A DNA stretch of 37,891 nucleotides, taken from contig JAGLIM010000066.1 of NCBI GenBank assembly GCA_023142995.1, forward strand, positions 1 to 37,891, given 5' to 3'. Each line of letters opens with the position of its first letter. The stretch's first letter is position 1. The notes beneath the pieces are model-generated. The model did not search any database. It was not told where the DNA came from and worked only from the letters and a program-made list of their open reading frames with translations. This document shows, piece by piece, positions 1,294 through 33,962 of the stretch. The position numbers and the translations under genes were made by a program. The stretch is from Minisyncoccota bacterium (GTDB taxonomy: Bacteria > Patescibacteriota > Minisyncoccia > JAHIHE01 > JAGLIN01).

Positions 1294-4200
1294 TTAATAA
1301 ATCCTAAAAAGCTGATTCCTAACCCCTAATCCCAACTTCAAATCTCCAACTTTCAATTCCTTCACCAGATCAAGATCCCCTTCAACTAATTCATCAGTAA
1401 ACTCAACATTTTTCGCCAAACATTCTTTGCTAATATAATCTTTCCACTTATCAAAAACTTTTTTAATATCTTTATCCTCATCAATAAAGCTATATTTGAT
1501 CGTTATCACATCGTTACGATCGTATTTCGCTTCTTTTCTCATCACCTGAATATGACGAATTATTTCTCTTGCCTGTCCTTCCAGCTTCAGCTCCTCAGTT
1601 ATTTCAACATTCAACGCAATTTTAATTTTATTATCTTCCTCTATAACCCAATTATCTTTCTCAACAATCTCATCCACAAACTCAACATTCTTAACATTCA
1701 ACTCATCCTTAATTAATTCTAATAATTCTCCTTCTATTTTTATTTCTGAAACTTTTTTTAATGCCTTTTCTACGTCAGAATTATTATTTATTTGTTTCCA
1801 ATTTTCAACTTTTAACTGATCTAAGGGTTGTCTTACTTTCAATCCATTTTTTGCCCTTATTGCAAGTCCCAAAGAAACTATATCTCTGACAAAATTCATT
1901 TTTTCACTCACTTTCCAATCAATTGATTTTTCATCAGCAACAGGGAAATTTTCTAAATGGACTGATTCTTTGTCAGTTAGATTCTCAAAAATCTCTTCAG
2001 CTATAAACGGCATAAACGGAGCAAGAAGCTTTGTATATTCAACCAAGACATAATGCAGAGTCTGAAAAGCAAAATCTTTATCTTCCGTAGAGACACAGCA
2101 TTGCTGCGTGTCTACCGCAGAAAATCTCTTTCTACTTCTACGAACATACCAATTTGAAAGCTTATCAACAAATTCACGAAGTGGTCTTGCCGCTCTTGCC
2201 AGATCATAATTCTCCATCTGCTTATTTACTTCCCCGATCAAAATATTAAATTCCGACAAGATCCATCTATCTAAAAGATTAGAACTTTTATTTTCAAAAA
2301 TTGTTCCACCATTTCCGTAAAACTGTTCTTTTACGTCCATCTCCTTTTGGGAGAGGACAGATGAGGGTTTCAAATTCTCATTCATCACCAAAAACGAATA
2401 TGTATTCCATAAAGTCAAAACAAACTTTTTCAAAACCTCCTCAACTCCTTTTTCTGAAAACCGAAGGGATTCCCCTTTCATCACAGGAGAAGACAAAAGA
2501 TAGTATCGAAGAGCATCAGCTCCATATTTCTCAATCACTAAGTTAGGCTCTGGATAGTTCTTTAATCTCTTGCTCATTTTCTGTCCATCTTCTGCTAAAA
2601 CCAGACCATTAACGATCACATTTGAAAAAGGAGCCTTATCAAAAAGCGCTGTTGAAAGAACCATCAAAGTATAGAACCAACCACGAGTTTGGTCTAGTCC
2701 TTCAGCAATAAATTCCGCTGGAAAACTTTTCTCAAATTCTGCTCTGTTCTCAAATGGATAGTGCCATTGCGCATATGGCATTGACCCTGACTCAAACCAA
2801 CAATCAAACACATCACCAACGATCTTCGCCTCATTTTTACACTTTGAACATTTGATCTTGATCCTATCAATATTTGGCTTATGTAAATTGAACTCTTTCT
2901 TATTTTTATCTACATAGAATATATTCTGCTTCGCATTGCCAAGGGTAAATTCATATTTATATACATCTTCTTTTGAAACCTTTTTGATGACCCTATAAAA
3001 CATTGCATTGATCACACCATGACCAACAATCAATATATTTTTTCCGGCATATTTTTCCGTAATTTCATCTATAAATTTCTTTACCCTGTCTTCAACTTCT
3101 TTTCTTGATTCTCCATCTCCACCAAAACGAAAATTATATCTTTGATCATTTTTAAGTTTCTTATATTCTCTATATAATTTATTCTCCTTAACAAAAGAAT
3201 CATCATTACTGCATCCATTCCATGATCCAAAGTCATATTCCCTGATTCTTTCATCTTCAATCCGCTGGATCTTTAATACCTTATTCACAATATCAGCTGT
3301 TTGCTTAGTCCTAAAGATCGGAGATGAGATCATAATATCAATCTTTTCTTCCTTTAGAATCTTCGTCACATCTTCCACTTGTTTAGTTCCTTTTTTCGTT
3401 AAGGGATATCCATCAAGCTGTCCTGCTTTTATATTATTTATATTATTCTCGCTCTCGCCATGCCGTAATAAGATGAGTTTCGTTATTTTCTGATCAATTT
3501 TTCCCCTCAGATCATCAATAGAACTTATCACTTCTATATTTTTGCAACTCTTACATCGCCAAATCGGAAGTGGCGCTCCCCAATATCTGCTTCGCGACAC
3601 TGCCCAATCACGAGCATCTTCCAACCATTTCCCAAACCGTCCTTCTTTGATATACTCTGGCGTCCAATTCACTTGCTTGTTATTAGCAACCATCTTATCC
3701 TTGATCTCCGTCACTTTCACAAACCACGAACTCGTCGCATAATTAAGTAGCGGCGTATCACACCGCCAACAATGCGGATAACTATGCTTATAATTTTCTT
3801 TAGAGAATAATTTATGATTTTCCTCTAGATATTTCACGATCTTTTCATCTGTCTCTCTCGGATTTCTCTTCGGTTTCACTTCCAGACCGATACCGCTATT
3901 CCCCTCTTGAGAGGGGCAGGGGTGTGTTAATGTGGAACCTTTTTGCAAGCCTCTATTAATTTTAGCTTTTTCCTTAAAATCCAAAACCTCACTTTTAAAT
4001 CTCCCATTCATTCCAACATGCGAAGCAAACGGCAAATTATGTTTCTGCCCCAAACTCATATCATCATTTCCAAACGCTGGCGCAATATGCACAACACCAG
4101 TTCCCTCTTCCGTTGAAACAAAATCCCCCGCATAAATTTTCCAACCGTTTTTTTCTTTTATTGCCTTTTTATAATAATCAAGATCATCATCAAAAGTCAT

Positions 4201-5544
4201 CTCAGGTGGCACATCTTTCAAATCAAAAAACTTCCACTCCGCAAATTTCTCTGGCTCATTGTTTTTTATCTGGTCTAAATTATACACTCTAACTAAAAAC
4301 CAATTAACAATATCACCATTTCGAAAACCCTTTCCACTGCCAAGATATTTTGTGATCTCATATTCGCAAATGTTACATTCTTCTTTCATCTCTCTTTGCA
4401 AAGCACTTTCCAAGTTTTCACCAATTTCTGATCTTCCACCAGGAACGATCCAACGATCTTTTTCTCCCTTGAAGCTTTTGCTATATTTCCTTAGACCAAG
4501 AAGTATTCTATCTTTCTCATCCAAAACAACAGCTTCAACAGTATTCAATTCATCCCCCGCTGTATTTAATAATTCTTCATTTTTATTCGAATAGTAATCA
4601 AACAGTGGTTCATATTCTAAATCAAGTAAATCCTTGCCATCAATTTCATTTAAGGTCTTGAACTCTTTATCTTTAAATATTTCACTTACTCTGTCCTTCG
4701 CTAGAACATAAAGATCATCTTCTCCCTTAATACTTAATACTGAATACTGAATACTATCTCCCACCGCCAAAGCCACATTCCCTGGCAATGTCCACGGCGT
4801 CGTCGTCCACGCCAAAACAAACACATCGTCATCCTGAGCCACACTGTCATCCTGAGCGAGCGGAGCGAGTCGAAAGATCCCTCTCAGTTTCCTAGCACTC
4901 TCTTCTTTCAATTTAAACTTCACAACCGCCGAGAGATCTGTAATATCCTTATACCCCTGCGTCACTTCAAAATTAGAAAGTGTCGTCTCACACCTCGGAC
5001 AAATATGCATCGCTTTATGCCCCTCATAAACCAATCCTTTTTTATAAAGCTCCGAAAAAACCCACCAAATTGATTCTGTATATTTCCAGTCCATTGTCCG
5101 ATAGTCATTTTCCATATCAACCCATCTTCCTATTCTTGGAATGAATTTCTTCCATTCTTTAGCATAACGCAAAACAGAATTACAGCATGCTTCATTAAAC
5201 TTATCAACTCCCATATCCTCAATTTCTTGCTTATTCTTGATATCTAGCTCTTTCTCAATTAAGTTTTCAATTGGCAATCCATGGCAATCCCAGCCCCATT
5301 TTCTCTCAACTCTATACCCTCTCATTGTCCAATATCTCGGCACAACGTCTTTCATCAAATTTGCCACGACATGCCCATAGTGAGGCATCCCCGTTGCAAA
5401 CGGAGGCCCGTCAAAAAAACTGTATGTTTTTCCATCATTTCTGTTATTTATAGATTTTTTGAATATTTTATTCTCTTTCCATTTTTCCATTACATCTCTT
5501 TCCATTTCTGGAAAATTCTGGCGAGGATCTACTTTTTTAAACAT
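1294..5544 (-). CDS. ileS: Isoleucyl-tRNA synthetase with inserted Nudix and histidine-phosphatase domains
   Basis: IleRS charges tRNA-Ile with isoleucine and hydrolyses mischarged Val-tRNA in its CP1 editing domain. Class I signatures are HYGH (residues 55-58) and KMSKR (989-993), typical of the eukaryote/archaeal-like IleRS type. The editing region is marked by TTTPWTLPGN (247-256) and VSTEEGTGVVHIAPAFG (476-492). At 1416 aa it is about 350 residues longer than the usual 1040-1060. The excess is mostly two domains: a Nudix hydrolase (about 333-460) within CP1, and a histidine phosphatase (about 687-878) between the CxxC pairs C664/C667 and C899/C902 of a zinc ribbon. Five short in-frame stretches, near residues 222-240, 264-273, 530-556, 1058-1071 and 1142-1156, derive from dispersed DNA repeats. 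The reading frame is intact and all synthetase motifs are present, so it is probably functional. No Shine-Dalgarno site precedes the ATG. Confidence 0.95.
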   Translation of the reverse strand: MFKKVDPRQNFPEMERDVMEKWKENKIFKKSINNRNDGKTYSFFDGPPFATGMPHYGHVVANLMKDVVPRYWTMRGYRVERKWGWDCHGLPIENLIEKELDIKNKQEIEDMGVDKFNEACCNSVLRYAKEWKKFIPRIGRWVDMENDYRTMDWKYTESIWWVFSELYKKGLVYEGHKAMHICPRCETTLSNFEVTQGYKDITDLSAVVKFKLKEESARKLRGIFRLAPLAQDDSVAQDDDVFVLAWTTTPWTLPGNVALAVGDSIQYSVLSIKGEDDLYVLAKDRVSEIFKDKEFKTLNEIDGKDLLDLEYEPLFDYYSNKNEELLNTAGDELNTVEAVVLDEKDRILLGLRKYSKSFKGEKDRWIVPGGRSEIGENLESALQREMKEECNICEYEITKYLGSGKGFRNGDIVNWFLVRVYNLDQIKNNEPEKFAEWKFFDLKDVPPEMTFDDDLDYYKKAIKEKNGWKIYAGDFVSTEEGTGVVHIAPAFGNDDMSLGQKHNLPFASHVGMNGRFKSEVLDFKEKAKINRGLQKGSTLTHPCPSQEGNSGIGLEVKPKRNPRETDEKIVKYLEENHKLFSKENYKHSYPHCWRCDTPLLNYATSSWFVKVTEIKDKMVANNKQVNWTPEYIKEGRFGKWLEDARDWAVSRSRYWGAPLPIWRCKSCKNIEVISSIDDLRGKIDQKITKLILLRHGESENNINNIKAGQLDGYPLTKKGTKQVEDVTKILKEEKIDIMISSPIFRTKQTADIVNKVLKIQRIEDERIREYDFGSWNGCSNDDSFVKENKLYREYKKLKNDQRYNFRFGGDGESRKEVEDRVKKFIDEITEKYAGKNILIVGHGVINAMFYRVIKKVSKEDVYKYEFTLGNAKQNIFYVDKNKKEFNLHKPNIDRIKIKCSKCKNEAKIVGDVFDCWFESGSMPYAQWHYPFENRAEFEKSFPAEFIAEGLDQTRGWFYTLMVLSTALFDKAPFSNVIVNGLVLAEDGQKMSKRLKNYPEPNLVIEKYGADALRYYLLSSPVMKGESLRFSEKGVEEVLKKFVLTLWNTYSFLVMNENLKPSSVLSQKEMDVKEQFYGNGGTIFENKSSNLLDRWILSEFNILIGEVNKQMENYDLARAARPLREFVDKLSNWYVRRSRKRFSAVDTQQCCVSTEDKDFAFQTLHYVLVEYTKLLAPFMPFIAEEIFENLTDKESVHLENFPVADEKSIDWKVSEKMNFVRDIVSLGLAIRAKNGLKVRQPLDQLKVENWKQINNNSDVEKALKKVSEIKIEGELLELIKDELNVKNVEFVDEIVEKDNWVIEEDNKIKIALNVEITEELKLEGQAREIIRHIQVMRKEAKYDRNDVITIKYSFIDEDKDIKKVFDKWKDYISKECLAKNVEFTDELVEGDLDLVKELKVGDLKLGLGVRNQLFRIY
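2077..2121. repeat. ileS: Palindromic repeat inside ileS (residues about 1142-1156)
   Basis: The DNA is a near-perfect palindrome (GTAGAGACACAGCA ... TGCTGCGTGTCTAC). It encodes SAVDTQQCCVSTEDK between the anticodon-binding segments RRSRKRF and FAFQTLHYVL, where other IleRS proteins have only a short linker. The insertion keeps the frame. Confidence 0.7.
2332..2373. repeat. ileS: Palindromic repeat inside ileS (residues about 1058-1071)
   Basis: CATCTCCTTTTGGGAGAGGACAGATG-type palindromic DNA encodes KPSSVLSQKEMDV in a linker after the KMSKR-bearing catalytic core. The resemblance to the CCCCTC-type repeats elsewhere is partial. Confidence 0.5.
2911..3486 (-). other. ileS: Histidine phosphatase (PGAM-like) domain inserted in IleRS
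   Basis: Residues about 687-878 form a complete histidine-phosphatase domain. The phosphohistidine motif is LLRHGESEN (Arg694, His695). The second arginine is in SSPIFRTKQTA (Arg745). The second catalytic histidine is in ILIVGHGVIN (His842). Synthetase sequence resumes at FNLHKPNIDRIKIKCSKC. The domain sits between the first CxxC (CKSC, 664-667) and the second (CSKC, 899-902) of the IleRS zinc ribbon, so an independent folding unit could bulge out of that loop. All catalytic residues are visible. The substrate is unknown. Confidence 0.9.
3877..3957. repeat. ileS: CCCCTCTTGAGAGGGG repeat (family R4) inside ileS
   Basis: The palindrome CCCCTCTTGAGAGGGG and the downstream GGGGTGTGTTA motif encode LTHPCPSQEGN within IleRS residues about 530-556. 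The same element lies in the 584-aa membrane protein gene (22467-22526), where it encodes THPLPLSRGE, and in two decayed genes near 26.27 and 27.6 kb. Confidence 0.8.
4165..4548 (-). other. ileS: Nudix hydrolase domain inserted in the IleRS editing region
   Basis: Residues about 333-460 are a Nudix fold. The Nudix box (G-x5-E-x7-R-E-U-x-E-E-x-G-U) reads G370, E376, R384, E385, M386, E388, E389, N391, I392. Every metal-binding acidic residue is present; only the penultimate glycine is replaced (Asn391). Synthetase sequence stops near YEPLFDYY and resumes at GWKIYAGDFVSTEEGTG, both part of CP1. Nudix enzymes cleave nucleoside diphosphates linked to another moiety, including Ap4A, a by-product of aminoacyl-tRNA synthetases. 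The link to that substrate is inference. Confidence 0.9.
4726..4755. repeat. ileS: Short repeat-derived insert in ileS (residues 264-273)
   Basis: A run of TTAATACT/GAATACT-type units encodes SIQYSVLSIK between VALAVGD and GEDDLYVLAKD in the editing domain. It looks like short tandem DNA rather than conserved protein. Confidence 0.45.
4825..4881. repeat. ileS: TCATCCTGAG-type repeat inside ileS
   Basis: Two TCATCCTGAG units followed by CGAGCGGAGCGAGTCGAAAG encode GIFRLAPLAQDDSVAQDDD just before VFVLAWTTTPWTLPG. A related motif, CCCACGACAAGCTCAGGATG, is part of the intergenic R2 repeats. Confidence 0.7.
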
Positions 5545-16068: not shown

Positions 16069-18294
16069 ATGGAGAAAAAACAAAAAACAATAGCAAGTGA
16101 ATTGCCTAAGTTCTTGGTAGTTGGGCTTGTTATCTTGGTCACAGGATTAGTTTCTTTGAACTCAATAGTTGCATTGGAACACAACACAGCTAACAAAAAC
16201 AAAAAAGTTGAAACTAAAAATGAAGTTAAAGGACAAAAAAATGATCAACAATATATTCCAGGACAAGTTATTGTCAAACTTAAAGAAGGAGAATCTTCTA
16301 ACTATGAATTTTTAAGGGGAAATAGATTGAAATCTGCTAAAAGAGTGATCAAAGAAAACAAATCAGGGAAAAACATAAAAGCCAGAGAAGTGGCAAAAGC
16401 GCACGGACTTGACCGAATTTATCTTGCAGAATTTTCTTCTGAAGAAAACCTAGCAGGAGTTTTAGAAAGACTTAATAAAGATCCCAGGGTAGAATATGCA
16501 GAACCTGACTATATTTACCGCACTACTGAAACAATTCCTTCTGATCCAAGTTTCTCTAAACTTTGGGGATTACACAACACAGCAACAGACGCAGACATTG
16601 ACGCTCCTGAAGCATGGGACCTTCAAAAAGGAAGCAAGGAAATCATAGTCGCTGTTATTGATTCAGGAGTTGATTATAATCATCCAGATCTAGCTGCGAA
16701 CATTTGGACTAATCCAGGTGAAATAGCTGATAATGGCGTAGATGACGATAATAATGGTTTTGTTGATGATTATTATGGTTGGGATTTTTATAGTAATGAC
16801 AATGATCCGATGGGCGCTACTTCTCATGGCACGCATTGCGCGGGAACAATCGGCGCGGTGGGAAATAATGGAGTTGGTGTTGTTGGTGTAAATTGGAATG
16901 TTAGTATAATGTCAATTAAATTTATGGGTACTAGCGGAGGAACCACATATGGAGCTATAAATTCTATAAATTATGCCATCAATATGGGTGCTGATATAAT
17001 GAGCAATAGCTGGGGCGCTAATCTTACTTCTGCCGGTATAGAAAATGCTATTTCTGCCGCAAATGACGCTGGTATTTTATTTGTCGCATCAGCTGGAAAT
17101 AGTGGCCAGGACAATGATAATGTCGTTACTCCAAACTACCCATCCAGTTCTAAATTAGATAATGTCGTTGCTGTAGCAGCAACAGATTCCAATGATAATA
17201 AAGCATCTTGGTCAAGCTATGGAGCTACTACTGTAGATCTTGGTGCTCCTGGTGTTAGTATTTATTCAACTGTAATGGGAGGTGGCTATGCTACTTACAG
17301 TGGAACTTCAATGGCTTGCCCGCATGTCGCTGGCGCAGCAGCTTTGATCAAAGCTCATTATCCAACAATGACCAGCGAAGGATTAAAGGCAAGACTCCTT
17401 GGCGGAGTTGATCCTATTCCTTCAATGGCAGGAATAACAGTAAGCGAAGGAAGATTAAATGTATTTAATTCTCTTTCTTTAGACAATGTTCCTCCAATAG
17501 CAAACGCAGGAGGCAGTCAATTTGTTAGTGATACTGATAGCAATGGAACAGAAACAGTTACTCTTGACGGATCTACTTCTACTGATTCAGATGGGTATAT
17601 AGCTTCTTATCAATGGTTTAAAAGTAATTCCACTACAGAATCTACTCTGATTGGAATTGAAGAGATTATAACTCATCCTTTTTTAGTTAATGATGATTAT
17701 TTAATAACTCTAATAGTAACAGACGACAAAGGAGCTACTGATACTAATATGGTTACTATAATAGTTAATCCAAATGAACCTCCATTTGCAAATGCTGGTG
17801 GAAACCAAACTGTAAATGATATAAATGGTGATGGTCAAGAATTAGTAACCTTAGATGGTAGCGACTCCTATGATCCAGATGGGAGCATAAGCTCTTATGT
17901 TTGGGATTTTGGAGATGGATCGACAGGATCAGGAATTTCTCCAACTCATACTTATAGTACTATTGGAATTTTCACAGCTACCTTAACCGTCACAGACAAC
18001 GGCGGAGCTATTGACACTGACATAGCTACTATAGAAATAGTAGAATTTATTCCAGATACAGTAACTGTGACAAATATTAAGTATGATACTAAAAAATCTA
18101 CCTTATTGGTCTATGCTATTTCTAACGGAAATGGTGCAGTCTTGACTGCTAGCGCTGGCGGTTTTGAAAATATAGCGATGAAATATGATTCGCGACTTAA
18201 AGTATTTAAAGCGACAATCAGAAAGATTGCTCCAGATCCTCATTCCGTAACTGTTACATCTTCTCTTGGAGGAGAAACAACTTATACCTGGTAA
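16069..18294 (+). CDS. Secreted subtilisin-like serine protease with PKD domains
   Basis: A peptidase S8 enzyme that is exported and probably acts outside the cell or on its surface. The 741-aa protein has an N-terminal membrane/signal segment (14-36, KFLVVGLVILVTGLVSLNSI). An inhibitor I9-type propeptide follows (about 61-150, YIPGQVIVKLKEG to RVEYAEPDYIY). The catalytic domain is 165-470, with Asp198 (VIDSGVDYNHPDL), His253 (SHGTHCAGT), oxyanion Asn344 (SAGNSG) and Ser414 (GTSMACPHVAG). Two PKD beta-sandwich domains follow (about 475-567 and 573-660; the second has YVWDFGDGSTGSG), then an 80-residue beta-rich tail. All catalytic residues are intact. It has its own promoter and terminator. 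The substrate is unknown; such proteases may process surface proteins or host polypeptides. Confidence 0.95.
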   Translation: MEKKQKTIASELPKFLVVGLVILVTGLVSLNSIVALEHNTANKNKKVETKNEVKGQKNDQQYIPGQVIVKLKEGESSNYEFLRGNRLKSAKRVIKENKSGKNIKAREVAKAHGLDRIYLAEFSSEENLAGVLERLNKDPRVEYAEPDYIYRTTETIPSDPSFSKLWGLHNTATDADIDAPEAWDLQKGSKEIIVAVIDSGVDYNHPDLAANIWTNPGEIADNGVDDDNNGFVDDYYGWDFYSNDNDPMGATSHGTHCAGTIGAVGNNGVGVVGVNWNVSIMSIKFMGTSGGTTYGAINSINYAINMGADIMSNSWGANLTSAGIENAISAANDAGILFVASAGNSGQDNDNVVTPNYPSSSKLDNVVAVAATDSNDNKASWSSYGATTVDLGAPGVSIYSTVMGGGYATYSGTSMACPHVAGAAALIKAHYPTMTSEGLKARLLGGVDPIPSMAGITVSEGRLNVFNSLSLDNVPPIANAGGSQFVSDTDSNGTETVTLDGSTSTDSDGYIASYQWFKSNSTTESTLIGIEEIITHPFLVNDDYLITLIVTDDKGATDTNMVTIIVNPNEPPFANAGGNQTVNDINGDGQELVTLDGSDSYDPDGSISSYVWDFGDGSTGSGISPTHTYSTIGIFTATLTVTDNGGAIDTDIATIEIVEFIPDTVTVTNIKYDTKKSTLLVYAISNGNGAVLTASAGGFENIAMKYDSRLKVFKATIRKIAPDPHSVTVTSSLGGETTYTW

Positions 18295-21752: not shown

Positions 21753-23507
21753 CTATCTTATTTCATATAAAACCAAATCATCTTCCTCTAATACTATCTC
21801 CAGCCACTCAGACTCATCTAAAAATCCATACTTTTCATAATCCATTTCTTTTGCCAATATAATATGAGTTATTCCTTCTAATCGTAAAAATTTAATATTT
21901 TCATTAAGCGTTTCAAATCCTTGTAAGAGCTGAAACATCTTTTTATCCCAAATCTCTTGATCACATTCCAAAAGATATACATTATCTATATTTTTACCAG
22001 CGATAACTTCAACTTGAAAAAATCTTGGAGCAGGATTTGATACTCTTTTTTCACCAGCAAAAGAAATTTTCGGATATCCGTGCCACGGCAAAAAAAGCAG
22101 TTTGTTATTTTCGTCTTGTTTTAAAATTTCATTTGCCTGATACCATGATTTTGGATAATCACTAGACTTTAATTGCCCATTAAATCCCCAAAAAATAGTC
22201 CAAACAGAAAGAAAGGGGACTAAAACGAGAAGCGTAAAAACATATCTCTGTTTTTTCGCGTAAGCAAGACCCCCAATTGGAACTAGAATGGCGTATGAGA
22301 ACGCTAGTAAGCCGACAAGCTTCTCTGTCTCACGCAAACCCTTAAAACCTGGCAGGAAGGCATATAAGACATTTATAATCGGTTTTGTAATATCAGAACC
22401 ATAACCAACAGACAACAGAACAACTGGAATAAAAATAATAGCCAAAGTTAAAATTAGCGCTATTTCCGAGGTCCGACTTCTGAAATACAATAATTCCCCT
22501 CTTGAGAGGGGTAAGGGGTGTGTTACTACTTTCCTCAACAACACATAAACCCCATAAACAGCAAAACCCAAAATAACAAAAGTCAAAACCCACCAATATT
22601 GAAAAAAATCTTTAGTTAAAAAGTAATCCGTACCCCAAAAACCATATAATGAGAGAACATTAAAAAACACCCAAAAAGACGGATCACCTTGAGTCGCAAA
22701 AGCCCTAAAATCATTTAAACTAAATTTATAATAACCACTTGAAGGACTCAAAAACCCAACCAACCAAAAAGAATTTACAACAAAAAAAAGAACAGCACCA
22801 TAAACAAAATACTTAACAAGCTTTTTATTGTCATTGTGAGAAGTACCTTTCTTTTTGTCATCTCGAAGAAGCCCCAAAGGGCGACTGAGAGATCTAAAAA
22901 TAAGATTAAGTGCATCTAATATACTTTTGGGTTTTTCTTTTTGAGACAACAACATAACAACAAACCAAACACCCCCCAACAAAACCAAAAACCAAAAAGA
23001 TATATACGCCCAATGCAAAGAAAGAATCGGATAAACAGAAAACAAAATCGCAAGTTTTAAAAAGCTTTTATTATCCAATTTTTCCAAAAATTCCAAAAAT
23101 AATTTCACAAGCAAAGGAAAAAATGCGTATCCCAAAAGAACATGCCAATGTCCAGCAAGAAACCTTTCATAAACATACGGATTTAACATATAAAAAAGAC
23201 CAGATAAAATTGCCCATTTCATCGGCAAAAAATTTTTAACAAGCTTAAACATAAAAAGTCCAGGCAAGAACAGAACAAGCGACAGAATAATTTTCTGAAT
23301 AATCTCAAGTGGTAAAGCAAAACTAAAAAGTTTAACAAGAACAATGATCGGAAAACCAGAACCTATACCATTTTTCAAATAATCGCCAAAGTCAAGACGA
23401 GGCACAAAAACCATATCCAACAAAAAAATAAACCCACCTTGATACAAAGGAAACATAATCGCCAAAGTTACAACAGCAAATATAATATACGGAAAATATT
23501 TTTTCAT
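21753..23507 (-). CDS. Multi-pass membrane protein, YfhO/GT-C-like
   Basis: The 584-aa product has about twelve hydrophobic helices and a C-terminal soluble part of about 120 residues. The first loop DMVFVPRLDFGDYLKNGIGSG follows helix 1, where GT-C glycosyltransferases carry acidic catalytic residues. PGFKGLRETEKL (386-397) matches PGFSAFREATKF in the 724-aa protein of the glycan cluster, so the two are related. The likely role is sugar transfer or lipid-linked glycan handling outside the membrane. Two in-frame stretches are repeat DNA: residues about 205-224 (RSLSRPLGLLRDDKKKGTS) and 328-347 (VTHPLPLSRGELLYFRSRTS), both in loops. The reading frame stays open. Confidence 0.75.
   Translation of the reverse strand: MKKYFPYIIFAVVTLAIMFPLYQGGFIFLLDMVFVPRLDFGDYLKNGIGSGFPIIVLVKLFSFALPLEIIQKIILSLVLFLPGLFMFKLVKNFLPMKWAILSGLFYMLNPYVYERFLAGHWHVLLGYAFFPLLVKLFLEFLEKLDNKSFLKLAILFSVYPILSLHWAYISFWFLVLLGGVWFVVMLLSQKEKPKSILDALNLIFRSLSRPLGLLRDDKKKGTSHNDNKKLVKYFVYGAVLFFVVNSFWLVGFLSPSSGYYKFSLNDFRAFATQGDPSFWVFFNVLSLYGFWGTDYFLTKDFFQYWWVLTFVILGFAVYGVYVLLRKVVTHPLPLSRGELLYFRSRTSEIALILTLAIIFIPVVLLSVGYGSDITKPIINVLYAFLPGFKGLRETEKLVGLLAFSYAILVPIGGLAYAKKQRYVFTLLVLVPFLSVWTIFWGFNGQLKSSDYPKSWYQANEILKQDENNKLLFLPWHGYPKISFAGEKRVSNPAPRFFQVEVIAGKNIDNVYLLECDQEIWDKKMFQLLQGFETLNENIKFLRLEGITHIILAKEMDYEKYGFLDESEWLEIVLEEDDLVLYEIR
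22467..22526. repeat. R4 repeat inside the 584-aa membrane protein gene
   Basis: CCCCTCTTGAGAGGGG plus the GGGGTGTGTTA tail, in frame, encodes THPLPLSRGE in a loop between hydrophobic helices. The same repeat occurs in ileS. Confidence 0.8.
22836..22895. repeat. GTCATCTCGA repeat inside the 584-aa membrane protein gene
   Basis: TGTCATCTCGAAGAAGCC and GGGCGACTGAGAGATCT encode RSLSRPLGLLRDDK in a cytoplasmic-type loop. It resembles the TCATCCTGAG-type repeat in ileS. Confidence 0.65.
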
Positions 23508-29123: not shown

Positions 29124-31628
29124 CTAATTTTTCTTTTTTTTCCTCCTCCTCCAATCCCACCCCAAATATCCCAAACACCCAAACAAAACAACCCCAAAAA
29201 CCAACAACCCCAAATAAAACCATCTCAACATCCCATTCTCAATAATCAATTCTATCTCATAAGTCCCATCAGAGTTTAACACGCAAACAGATAATTCCGT
29301 TGGCTCCATAGTCCCGTTAGGGCTGTGGAGCCTTTCTGCAGAATCTCCTACACTACCGCACAACTCCTCAACATCAACCCACCAAGCGTTGGAATAATTA
29401 TTAACCTGAAAATGTATATCTTCATCAATTGGCTCCTTAAACCAAGAATCATAAAATCTGCCATTACTCAAATTATCATTCCGAATTGATCCATCAAAAT
29501 TCTTAGAAATAAACTTATCACCAACAGCAGAAATTAAACCACCAGAAACAAACCCCTCAACCTCTTCTCTCGTCGCCTGCCTATTTGATTCTATTTCTGG
29601 AACAAAATAATCATCCGGCACACGTAGGGACGCAAGATTTTGCGTTCCTACAGATGTCAAATACACTTTCCACTTCTCACTATACTTTTCAGGATAAACT
29701 AAAAGAAATGAATCTTTCACACCATGCAAAACAACTTTATTTTTCCAACGATTAACCGCCTTATATTCCACTGATTTTAATTTTGGCGTTTCATCTACTT
29801 CTTGCTCGGCGTGAAGATAATATGAATCTATGTCTTTGGGCAAATATTCTGTTAAACGAACATTATCGTATAAATTTATAATTTCTTCTTTTCCATCTGA
29901 CGGGGCGTAAAAATGAATGTTAAAATATTTTACTCCGCTGATTTCAGGATCAATTATTGTCTCGTAAGTATGCCAATTATTATCTTCAGTTTTAATCATT
30001 TCTGAATGAGTATTTTGTTTTTCGTCGCTTCGCAAATTATAATAATACATTACTTTTCCACCTTTAATATTTTTATAATCAAATTGTAGTTTATACAATT
30101 TTCCGTCTGATAAATTAACTGGAAAAGCCTTTGAGATACAGGCGTAATGATTTTTTGATGATAATTCTGCTGATTTTTCACCATCGCTGACATCTGATGA
30201 TTCTTCCAGTTTTAAATCAGGCTCGCCTGGCTTTGAATTACTGCAATCTCCCGCTTCTTTCTGCCATAATCCGCTTTCAAAAGACGCAGTTTCCGCATCA
30301 AGCAAATTTGTATCATCAACAATATATTCAAATTTATTTTTGCCTTGCTGCAGAAAAATATTTTCAGCCAAAACTATATCTGTATCAATTACTGATTCAA
30401 GGTCAATCTTTCTTGTTTCCGTTAATTCATATTCCACTAAACGAACATTGTCATATAAATTCACAATTTCCTTGCTTCCGTCTGATGGAGCGTAAAAAAA
30501 TATATCAATAAATTTTATATCATCAATCGGATCTCCTGAATAAAAATCACTTATTCCTTTGCCTAAAAACAAATCCGCATTAAAGCCGTCTTGATCTTCT
30601 TCAATATATTCAGGATGCACAAAATTTTCTTTGACTGTTTTTGGCTTGATAATTGTGGAAAATGTATTCCATCTATTGTTTTCGGCTTGTATCGTTTCTG
30701 TAAAGGCATAGCCTAAAATTTTGTTATTTTCTTCACTGCGTAATTTATAGTAATAACGAACATCTTTTCCTGCGATATTTTTATAATCAAAAGACAACTG
30801 ATATAATTTGTCTTCTTTCATTTGCACAGGGAATATTTTACTTGTGCAAGCGTAATGATTTTTAGATGATAATTCCATTGCTATTTTACCATCGCTAGCA
30901 TCTGACGACTCCTTTAAATCAATTTCAGAAGCTCCGTCCATTTTATTACTGCAATCTCCAGCTTCTGTTTGCCACAGTCCGTTTTCAAAAGAGGCGGTTG
31001 TCGTGCCCAGTAAATTATCATTTATTGGCTTAAATATTTTTATTTCTGTGTCTTCTATGCCTCTAATTGCAGTTTCTATATTTAGATTATCAGATATATT
31101 AATAATATTATCTTCCCCAATTTTAATAATTGCGTTTGGAGCAATTTTATACAAAGAATATAAAATATTATTTTTTATATTTATTTTGTTATCAGAAATC
31201 AAAAGTTCATATCCAGACATTAAAAAATCAAGTCGTTCTTGTTTACTATTATAAACAACTTGCAGATTACTGCTATCTGTTATTTTTTTCTTTAAGCCAA
31301 AACCAGAATTAAAATTACCTTGATTGTTAAATAAATATTTTTCTTTTTCGTCTTTAATCAATCCCAAATATATATTTTTTGTTTGTGGGATAATTAAATT
31401 ATATTTTTTATCACTTTGTTTTTCGTCTATAATATTTACTCTCTCGTTTTTTCTATCAATAAAATACTGATTTTCCATGTCTCCTAAAATTATATTGTCT
31501 ATCTTGTTGGCAGTATAGACAGGTGAAACAAAATCAGTATAATTTACAAATACAAAAGCTATGCTATAAATTAGCAACAAAGCAAATAATGCGATAATTG
31601 ATTTAATTTTGTAATTTTTTTTTATCAT
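29124..31628 (-). CDS. Membrane-anchored extracellular protein with two carbohydrate-binding-like repeats
   Basis: The 834-aa product has an N-terminal helix (9-30, KSIIALFALLLIYSIAFVFV) and a C-terminal helix (near 800-822, FYLGLLVFGVVLFGCLGYLGW) followed by DWRRRKKKKN, so the bulk faces outward. Two similar jelly-roll-like modules (about 210-400 and 445-610) share ETASFE/GLWQ-EAGDCSN, SSKNHYAC-SK-FPV and FYAPSDG-EI-NLYDNVRL. The last 200 residues match the C-terminus of the 724-aa GT-C-like protein (DG-x-Y/I-E/D-x-EL, then GCLGYLGWDWRRRK). A role in binding or organising surface glycan is likely but inferred. Two repeat-derived inserts occur in frame near residues 655-669 and 757-776. Decayed relatives lie at 26.2 and 27.7 kb. 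Confidence 0.75.
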   Translation of the reverse strand: MIKKNYKIKSIIALFALLLIYSIAFVFVNYTDFVSPVYTANKIDNIILGDMENQYFIDRKNERVNIIDEKQSDKKYNLIIPQTKNIYLGLIKDEKEKYLFNNQGNFNSGFGLKKKITDSSNLQVVYNSKQERLDFLMSGYELLISDNKINIKNNILYSLYKIAPNAIIKIGEDNIINISDNLNIETAIRGIEDTEIKIFKPINDNLLGTTTASFENGLWQTEAGDCSNKMDGASEIDLKESSDASDGKIAMELSSKNHYACTSKIFPVQMKEDKLYQLSFDYKNIAGKDVRYYYKLRSEENNKILGYAFTETIQAENNRWNTFSTIIKPKTVKENFVHPEYIEEDQDGFNADLFLGKGISDFYSGDPIDDIKFIDIFFYAPSDGSKEIVNLYDNVRLVEYELTETRKIDLESVIDTDIVLAENIFLQQGKNKFEYIVDDTNLLDAETASFESGLWQKEAGDCSNSKPGEPDLKLEESSDVSDGEKSAELSSKNHYACISKAFPVNLSDGKLYKLQFDYKNIKGGKVMYYYNLRSDEKQNTHSEMIKTEDNNWHTYETIIDPEISGVKYFNIHFYAPSDGKEEIINLYDNVRLTEYLPKDIDSYYLHAEQEVDETPKLKSVEYKAVNRWKNKVVLHGVKDSFLLVYPEKYSEKWKVYLTSVGTQNLASLRVPDDYFVPEIESNRQATREEVEGFVSGGLISAVGDKFISKNFDGSIRNDNLSNGRFYDSWFKEPIDEDIHFQVNNYSNAWWVDVEELCGSVGDSAERLHSPNGTMEPTELSVCVLNSDGTYEIELIIENGMLRWFYLGLLVFGVVLFGCLGYLGWDWRRRKKKKN
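29303..29331. repeat. GGCTCCATAG palindrome (R7) inside the 834-aa gene
   Basis: GGCTCCATAGTCCCG and GGGCTGTGGAGCC are inverted. It lies between DVEELCG and LSVCVLN, the same site that holds the unrelated R4 repeat in the two decayed relatives. Confidence 0.75.
29622..29660. repeat. GTAGGGACGCAAG palindrome inside the 834-aa gene
   Basis: GTAGGGACGCAAGA and TTTGCGTTCCTAC are inverted. In frame it encodes SVGTQNLASLRV between WKVYL and DDYF; the related 724-aa protein has no such insert at its WKIRLG. Confidence 0.75.
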
Positions 31629-31787: not shown

Positions 31788-33962
31788 TTAATTTCCATTA
31801 GTTTCAATAAACTTCTTAGTTTCTATTAATTTTCTTTTCCGCCAATCGTAAATTAAACATCCAAAGCATCCAAGTAAAGTCGTTCCTGAAATAATCAGTC
31901 CGAGATAAAGATATGACTGGGGTTTAAAATACATTACTAACTCAACATCAATGCTCCCGTCTGGATTTTCTTTGTAGTATTCTTTAGAAAAATTTTGTTT
32001 GATGTATTCGGGGTTAATTATAAAGCTATTTAAAAATCCATCATTTTCGTAATGAAAATAAGAGTTATAGAAATAATTTTTAGCAAAAATAGAGTCAAAC
32101 CAATTAATATCACGACCTAATCTAATCTTCCATTCTGGATGATAAGTATCTGAAAAATTAAGATGAATAGGCTCTTTAATTGATTTTAATTGTATCTTAA
32201 ACTTAGTTGTAGAAAATTGTTTGTATTCAATTTTTTTATAGCTAATTTCCTTGTAAATACTTTCTTGTTTTTCTGTAATATATAAACGAGGTTTATAGCC
32301 AATATTTTCGTATATTAATAAATTACCTGCTTTAATATCAACTTTTTTAAGATAAGATAATTTCTCAATAATATTAATATAAAAATCTCTATCTTTTTTA
32401 AAATGTAAAGAAAAATCGTTTTTAGAATCTTCTTTAATATCCAATGGTATAACCAAATATTTCACGGAATAATTATTTAAAAGGTTTTCGGAAAAATCCT
32501 GTTCAAGTATATCAACATATCGATGCATAGTATTTTTTTTGTATCCTTTGATGTTTTTCCACTTATCTTCAATAATTCTTGTGAGGTTAAATTTAGGAAC
32601 TTTATTTGAGTTATACCACCACCTAGAATCTCTTGGCACTAAAAGAAATCTATAGTTTCTGTTTTCGTCATTAAAATAATTTTTTGCTATCAAATATTCT
32701 TTGGGTATTTTCTTGGGTGTATACAAAGATTCTATTTGTCCACTAAAAATATTTACTGTGTTAGCAATAAAAATAAGTACAATCAAAATCGTGAGTCCAA
32801 ATTTTAGACACACTTTTATTTTTGTTGTTTTCCTTTTAGACCAAAGCCACTTTACAAAAAATCCTATTAAAACAGAATATCCTAAAATTATTAAATAATA
32901 AAATTTTGTAGCTTCTCTAAAAGCACTAAATCCTGGAAAATTTTCAAACATCCACTCATAAAGATTTTCAAAGGGCACCCCGTTTTGCTTGCTGAGTAAA
33001 ATTCCTAATACAGAAATAAATGCAAAAAAAATTACTATCTTTCGTTTTCTGTAAACAAAAAACCCCAAAAAAGCAAACAATGGTATTAAAAAAAAGTGTG
33101 ATGGTATTTGTTGCGGTATTTGCCAAATTGATGTTCCACTCCAAAATGGATGAAACAAAGACATCGCCTCTGATATGCCCCAGTAATTAACAAACGCAAG
33201 ATTTCTACTAAGTATCTCATTGTTAGTTAATTCATTTGCAAGAAATTGTGGCAGAATCCAATAAGATGATAAAAATATAAAGATCATAAAAGGCGTGACA
33301 AATGATTTTATGATCTTGCTGGCATTTTTTAAGTTGAATTTATATTTATAGAAATAATAAAAAGAGTAAAATAAAAATAACCACCACAAAATATAAAGAA
33401 ATCTTAAATCATAAGAACCAGTTATAAATAAGAAAAAAGAAGTAACTATTATTGTTCTTGGTCGTTGATTTTCCAAACTATTAATAAAAAAATAAAATGC
33501 TAAATTTGAAAAAATACAGGCAACGGTCAAAGATAAATGTCCCTGACTGTTTATTGCTAAAAAATAAGTATTAAAAGTAAAAACAATTCCGCCAACAAAG
33601 GCAGCGATTTTATTGTTAACAATTTTTTTTATCAACAAATAGCTACTTAATGGTAATACAAATATTATAGGCCACATCAAAATTATTTTTTCAGAAATAT
33701 TATAACCTATATTAAAATGAGCAAGAGCAGAAGCTGGAAAATGATAAAAACATTTCCACATTTGAATATTAAAATGCCCTGGTGTATGGTCAGATAACCA
33801 TGTTTGAGGAAGGATATGATCTTTTAATCTATCTATATAAAAAAAATGATTATCACAATATACAAAATAATCAAACGATAACCATCTAAAATAGACAAAA
33901 GAAGATATTGCTAGTAGTAACAATAATAATTTATGCTTTTTAATAAACAAGATTATATACAT
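31788..33962 (-). CDS. GT-C-like multi-pass membrane glycosyltransferase
   Basis: The 724-aa protein has about twelve hydrophobic helices in the first 420 residues and an extracytoplasmic C-terminal half ending in a last helix (YLYLGLIISGTTLLGCFGCLIYDWRKRK). The first outer loop (CDNHFFYIDRLKDHILPQTWLSDHTPG) has acidic and aromatic residues, as in GT-C enzymes that use polyprenyl-phosphate sugars. PGFSAFREATKF matches the 584-aa protein. The C-terminus matches the 834-aa protein. It is transcribed after the GT4 gene with only 15 bases between them, so it is part of the glycan operon. Its exact substrate is unknown. Confidence 0.78.
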   Translation of the reverse strand: MYIILFIKKHKLLLLLLAISSFVYFRWLSFDYFVYCDNHFFYIDRLKDHILPQTWLSDHTPGHFNIQMWKCFYHFPASALAHFNIGYNISEKIILMWPIIFVLPLSSYLLIKKIVNNKIAAFVGGIVFTFNTYFLAINSQGHLSLTVACIFSNLAFYFFINSLENQRPRTIIVTSFFLFITGSYDLRFLYILWWLFLFYSFYYFYKYKFNLKNASKIIKSFVTPFMIFIFLSSYWILPQFLANELTNNEILSRNLAFVNYWGISEAMSLFHPFWSGTSIWQIPQQIPSHFFLIPLFAFLGFFVYRKRKIVIFFAFISVLGILLSKQNGVPFENLYEWMFENFPGFSAFREATKFYYLIILGYSVLIGFFVKWLWSKRKTTKIKVCLKFGLTILIVLIFIANTVNIFSGQIESLYTPKKIPKEYLIAKNYFNDENRNYRFLLVPRDSRWWYNSNKVPKFNLTRIIEDKWKNIKGYKKNTMHRYVDILEQDFSENLLNNYSVKYLVIPLDIKEDSKNDFSLHFKKDRDFYINIIEKLSYLKKVDIKAGNLLIYENIGYKPRLYITEKQESIYKEISYKKIEYKQFSTTKFKIQLKSIKEPIHLNFSDTYHPEWKIRLGRDINWFDSIFAKNYFYNSYFHYENDGFLNSFIINPEYIKQNFSKEYYKENPDGSIDVELVMYFKPQSYLYLGLIISGTTLLGCFGCLIYDWRKRKLIETKKFIETNGN

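Follow-up and report, generated by a model that had tools for sequence, protein, structure and literature searches.

ileS Locus and Synthetase Features

The analyzed window is positions 1 to 37,891 of contig JAGLIM010000066.1 of the Minisyncoccota bacterium assembly GCA_023142995.1 (forward strand). A single uninterrupted frame of 1416 aa on its reverse strand encodes an isoleucyl-tRNA synthetase (IleRS) with two nested enzymes. The following features were located in it:

1294..5544, -, ileS, encoding the type-2 IleRS and its nested enzymes
5371..5385, -, class I signature PHYGH (HIGH), residues 54-58
4828..4890, -, short in-frame repeat-like DNA tract, residues ~219-239 (LRGIFRLAPLAQDDSVAQDDD; DNA CTCGCTCAGGATGAC), pLDDT <50 at 227-236
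4156..4569, -, Nudix hydrolase domain lying within CP1, residues ~326-463
4369..4437, -, Nudix box GRSEIGENLESALQREMKEECNI, residues 370-392, agreeing with GX5EX7REUXEEXGU save for N in place of the final G
4060..4104, -, CP1 editing motif GTGVVHIAPAFGNDD (GTGVVHIAPAFGNDD481), residues 481-495, intact downstream of the Nudix insert
3877..3945, -, second short in-frame tract, residues ~534-556, self-complementary CCCCTCTCAAGAGGGG, low pLDDT at 528-551
3544..3555, -, first CxxC of the zinc ribbon (C664, C667)
2905..3486, -, branch 1 histidine phosphatase (HP) nested in the zinc ribbon, residues ~687-880
3460..3465, -, HP catalytic R694-H695 (RHG motif)
3310..3312, -, HP active-site R745
3019..3021, -, HP catalytic H842
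2839..2850, -, second CxxC of the zinc ribbon (C899, C902)
2566..2580, -, KMSKR signature, residues 989-993

The window protein scored 888.6 bits against the ileS equivalog model TIGR00392 (cut-off 621.4) and was closer to IleRS2 8c8u (9e-208) than to IleRS1 8c9e (2e-76), which assigns it to type 2. All sequence signs of type-2 IleRS were present, namely HIGH, KMSKS, the CP1 editing motifs (including an intact TTPWTLPGN248), and the zinc-ribbon cysteines; judged by its sequence, the protein is a complete type-2 IleRS. The AF2 model covered residues 1-1190, and IleRS2 structures ranked first when it was searched with Foldseek (target TM 0.87 for 1ILE). Thermus 1ILE and Priestia 8C8U are the nearest solved relatives by both sequence and fold; their catalytic, editing, and anticodon parts are all common to the window protein, which differs from them in carrying two additional complete enzymes within the chain.

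The tract at residues ~219-239 was considered as a dispersed repeat, and this was ruled out by its single copy in the assembled genome. In the relative G002, a Nudix domain is inserted at this position. The tract at residues ~534-556 also occurs in the loci of a few relatives. The contigs of several relatives end within ileS. Elsewhere in the window, a subtilase (Peptidase_S8) with PKD domains (16069-18294, +, 741 aa) was annotated, and three large frames of 584, 834, and 724 aa (21753-23507, 29124-31628, and 31788-33962, all -) had no Pfam match at 1e-4.

Nested Histidine Phosphatase and Nudix Domains

The Pfam scan placed His_Phos_1 (PF00300) at residues 690-887 (E 1e-37), flanked by the zinc-ribbon motifs CxxC 664-667 and CxxC 899-902. 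The active set of HP branch 1 is complete (RHGE694-697, R745, E769, and H842), and the domain was modeled in place within the ribbon at a pLDDT of about 88-95. Since GTG672 is the only candidate start codon in residues 655-700 (no ATG or TTG), a separate internal start of the HP is not obvious. The best PDB match was PspA 4ij5 (1.5e-18), and the nearest enzymes are phosphatases of the PspA, CobC, and PhoE types, which have the complete RHG, R, E, and H active site of the branch in common with the insert. Unlike these, the window HP is nested in a synthetase and falls below the curated cut-off of each specific phosphatase family (PspA 101/350, CobC 101/163, and dPGM 92/225 bits).

The Nudix domain (PF00293) was matched at residues 335-450 (E 1e-15), and its predicted catalytic set is complete. 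As the AF2 run on residues 1-1190 left this insert without a model, it was modeled from a separate alignment of its own (pLDDT 85.9); Foldseek gave a probability of 1.0 against many Nudix structures, corresponding to the alpha-beta-alpha Nudix fold. Among the matches listed, the best target-normalized TM-score belonged to the Ap4A hydrolase 1ktg (0.82), with 0.78 for the Ap6A hydrolase 1vc8, whereas the E-values placed MutT, ADP-ribose, and NUDT15-type enzymes above the Ap4A hydrolases. No Ap4A family was among the NCBIfam matches, and no specific curated family among the NCBIfam models was reached by the insert. It has the box and fold of MutT, ADP-ribose pyrophosphatase, and Ap4A hydrolase and is distinguished from them by its nesting in CP1 and by the lack of a specific family. 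Naming a substrate from family models was abandoned, because no specific family passes for the HP or the Nudix domain. The motifs, Pfam matches, and full active sets bear out what an earlier note had read from the DNA: two catalytically intact domains in one frame within a complete IleRS, with the Nudix domain in CP1 and the HP inside the zinc ribbon.

An independent metagenome-assembled genome, G008 (JAGLOZ010000075.1, locus L001), has the Nudix domain and the HP at identical positions within a single frame, so that the architecture is not confined to one assembly, a doubt the earlier note had raised. The two Nudix domains are 83% identical (Ka 0.091, Ks 0.674, and Ka/Ks about 0.14) and the two HPs 73% identical (Ka 0.150, Ks 1.282, and Ka/Ks about 0.12); these low ratios point to purifying selection on both inserts.

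Distribution and Phylogeny of the Inserts

The survey covered genomes of the window's class and of other classes of the same phylum. The HP and IleRS align without interruption in well over 100 class genomes, and by hand count the HP lies inside frames of at least 700 aa in at least about 80 of 143; HP-bearing IleRS were also found in several other classes of the phylum. The junction is nearly always the loop between the two CxxC motifs (...C..C....V.GS..EL-[HP]-(D)LHRPYID.I...C..C); the HPs of G609 and G427, like the second ones in family f168, are placed elsewhere. IleRS without an HP made up 23 of the 101 sampled sequences, the sample not being random. One of them belongs to G011, a member of the window's own family with a short zinc-ribbon loop; no HP was detected anywhere in the genomes of G011 and G017. 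Further HP domains occur in 928-aa frames other than the IleRS of the respective genomes (G066:C13:28892-29431 and G159:C26:24033-24554).

When 87 nested HPs with a mean identity of 32% were aligned, the only fully invariant columns were R694, H695, S741, R745, and H842. As these include signature active-site residues, the domain has probably been kept for catalysis, and it is seen from these sequences as an old and CATALYTICALLY constrained insertion. The impression from regular expressions that some HPs had lost RHG was ruled out by the alignment, in which all have the catalytic His. A different history applies to the Nudix domain, which at the window's CP1 site is common only to G008 among the sampled relatives and is a recent acquisition. 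Hence, of the conservation sought by the earlier note in related IleRS, that of the HP holds in the same loop of most sampled class genomes, and that of the Nudix site fails outside G008. Inheritance of the two domains as one pair was rejected, the other relatives having a Nudix domain elsewhere or none. The proposed pathway of Nudix cleavage followed by phosphate removal is likewise unlikely, given an HP that is old, widespread, and exchanged and a Nudix domain that is recent and found in one sampled relative.

In the HP tree, the window's family grouped with L054 and L055 (same order) and with L145 and L143 (other classes) at 99.5% support, and the IleRS core tree rejects this grouping (AU p = 2e-50). 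L053 is sister to the window's family in the core tree (100%), yet its HP belongs to another lineage (p = 0.0026). Support for deep branches is poor in the HP tree. The strong conflict of the HP and IleRS core trees rules out a single vertical inheritance of the HP with IleRS and indicates that the HP moves between IleRS hosts; the same conflict would result if ileS had partly recombined together with its flanks. A single clade of nested HPs separate from free HPs was also rejected (AU p = 0.005). Among 26 HP-less genomes of the class, 6 have a free HP gene immediately upstream of ileS, which it abuts or overlaps in five, and these free HPs interleave with nested ones in the tree. In family f54, the HP is nested in G333 and is a neighbor of ileS in G093, the sister of G333 in the core tree. 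Of 12 genomes from other classes that were likewise HP-less, none had an HP gene adjacent to ileS. Presence is patchy on the IleRS core tree, with at least 16 changes of label.

Accessory Enzymes in Other IleRS, ValRS, and LeuRS

The IleRS of relatives carry further modules. The earlier note was right that the loops tolerate inserts. A Nudix domain is situated at residue ~222 in G002 and G017 (L056 and L101), and an RBBP9-like serine hydrolase occupies CP1 in G282 and G189 (L063 and L065). The G643 enzyme (L141:1441-6072, 1544 aa) combines a serine hydrolase, a Nudix domain, and an HP in a single chain, and in that of G427 (L139:338-4690), a GNAT acetyltransferase and an HP immediately precede the anticodon-binding domain. 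Two or three HPs were found in the IleRS of L133, L135-L138, and L140, with a tandem HP in five of six sampled members of family f168; the three HPs of G609 (L140:3167-7882, 1572 aa) take three positions, one of them inside the catalytic domain. The box is intact in every inserted Nudix domain, and the HSLG nucleophile motif is present in every serine hydrolase examined in IleRS and LeuRS. A Pfam intein splicing domain was detected at residues 202-757 of the G225 IleRS (L142:7-4563, 1519 aa).

The ValRS of the window genome (G000:C30:26305-29832; L153:806-4333; 1176 aa) contains a PhzC-PhzF domain at residues 474-694. This ValRS region, equivalent to the IleRS insertion site, holds the PhzF-like enzyme in the window genome, an HP in G002, a serine hydrolase in G004 and G005, both an HP and a serine hydrolase in G014 (L168:1-3363), and nothing in G008, G010, and G012. 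LeuRS carry Ham1 ahead of the anticodon domain, plus a Nudix domain or a serine hydrolase, and a weak ASCH match was obtained in two of them. The C-terminal part of the LeuRS of the window genome (G000:C77:1-1484, L154; the contig begins inside the gene) has Ham1 between the catalytic and anticodon domains. In the G100 LeuRS (L174:504-3755), a partial Ham1-like match (residues 254-338) lies beside the editing domain.

The sole Ham1 and PhzF detected in the window genome are thus nested, in LeuRS and ValRS, respectively, although "only copy" may miss unassembled genes in this fragmented assembly (1.48 Mb, 95 contigs, 96% complete). Ham1 is lacking in 76 of 113 members of the class, which implies that its function is dispensable; where present elsewhere in the class, it is mostly a free gene.

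Interpretation of the Nested Enzymes

The observations are best accommodated, with somewhat better than even confidence, by a synthetase that carries small enzymes, interchangeable and acting independently, in surface loops that serve as fixed ports. The type-2 IleRS would keep all of its catalytic parts and bear self-contained enzymes plugged into surface loops, the HP using a fixed port between the two zinc-ribbon CxxC motifs that may be filled or empty in related IleRS. The HP would act as a phosphomonoesterase and the Nudix domain as a nucleotide-diphosphate hydrolase, each with its own small-molecule chemistry, largely independent of aminoacylation. Nesting could provide co-expression and a stable scaffold without a promoter or ribosome-binding site of their own. 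Invariant active sites in 87 HPs and intact inserted Nudix boxes suggest that the inserted enzymes are maintained by selection; together with their mobility and interchangeability, this fits enzymes that ride on a synthetase carrier and have a job of their own.

That the HP is tied to IleRS far more than to other hosts, also as a neighbor, could reflect functional coupling to isoleucylation. Coupled quality control, in which the hydrolases act on synthetase products or poisons and tethering matters for the chemistry, is a rather unlikely explanation; its tentative candidate substrates are AMP, Ap4A and further adenylylated nucleotides, analogues of aminoacyl-adenylates, and non-canonical NTPs. 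It gains from a module set biased to nucleotide and small-molecule enzymes (Nudix, Ham1, HP, serine hydrolase, and GNAT), from the linkage of the HP to IleRS both nested and adjacent, and from the target TM-scores of 1ktg (the top among the matches listed) and 1vc8. It loses by the preference of the Foldseek E-values for MutT, ADP-ribose, and NUDT15-type enzymes, by an HP that is nearest to PspA/CobC/PhoE-type phosphatases yet beneath all curated cut-offs, by the swapping of modules between hosts and positions, by the poor fit of PhzF and ASCH, and by related IleRS with no HP in the genome.

Patchy presence with repeated label changes, the multiplicity of sites, and the in-frame insertion of short repeat-like tracts would also be expected of neutral passengers, neighboring genes inserted in frame and retained only because excision is rare. 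Such a history is improbable and already disfavored: active sites are invariant over large divergence, Ka/Ks is low, and the HP-free zinc ribbon of G011 indicates that loss is possible and mostly has not happened. The earlier note's suggestion of passengers is therefore not right as stated, in view of the 87 divergent HPs with invariant active-site residues and the intact Nudix boxes. A structural or tRNA-contacting role with incidental catalysis is very improbable; a confident model does place the HP within the zinc ribbon, but full conservation among nested HPs is limited to catalytic residues, sister enzymes do without the domain, and the same phosphatase is also a free neighboring gene. 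As for an assembly chimera or a false frame, the contig breaks within ileS of several relatives could hint at one, yet an artefact is ruled out, to near certainty, by independent genomes with nested enzymes: G008 has the identical pair of inserts, and nested HPs lie in long frames of many genomes, including the single-contig G345 and G442.

Relation to Known Synthetases and Significance

Accessory domains in synthetases are known. The NCBIfam family NF040702 (ileS_w_GNAT), an IleRS with an acetyltransferase domain, sets a precedent for IleRS with accessory enzymes, and L139 likewise carries GNAT. The window protein is not a member (285.7 bits, cut-off 1999; no GNAT in the Pfam scan), and the module set of the IleRS described here is different and swappable. 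The CP1/editing-domain insertions of class Ia synthetases are the classic domain insertion into the synthetase core (PMC13114784); here, in contrast, further unrelated enzymes are inserted that vary between sister species. In a full-text literature search largely limited to open-access journal articles, no paper was found that describes an HP, Nudix, Ham1, or PhzF domain inside synthetases. The nested enzymes appear to extend the accessory-domain synthetases to an unusual degree.

With a confidence slightly above even, the class Ia synthetases (Ile, Val, and Leu) of much of Patescibacteria can be regarded as a plug-in platform with fixed ports, whose intact enzymes are swapped between hosts and lineages and are sometimes free neighbors, some small-molecule enzymes existing only as synthetase domains. 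If this is true, shared insertion ports with different, apparently active, and interchangeable enzymes would represent a new mode of gene organization. Gene-content surveys may miscount enzymes concealed within synthetases, and the sites and tolerated inserts would form a natural catalogue for protein engineering. The chemical purpose of tethering enzymes to a synthetase would become testable.
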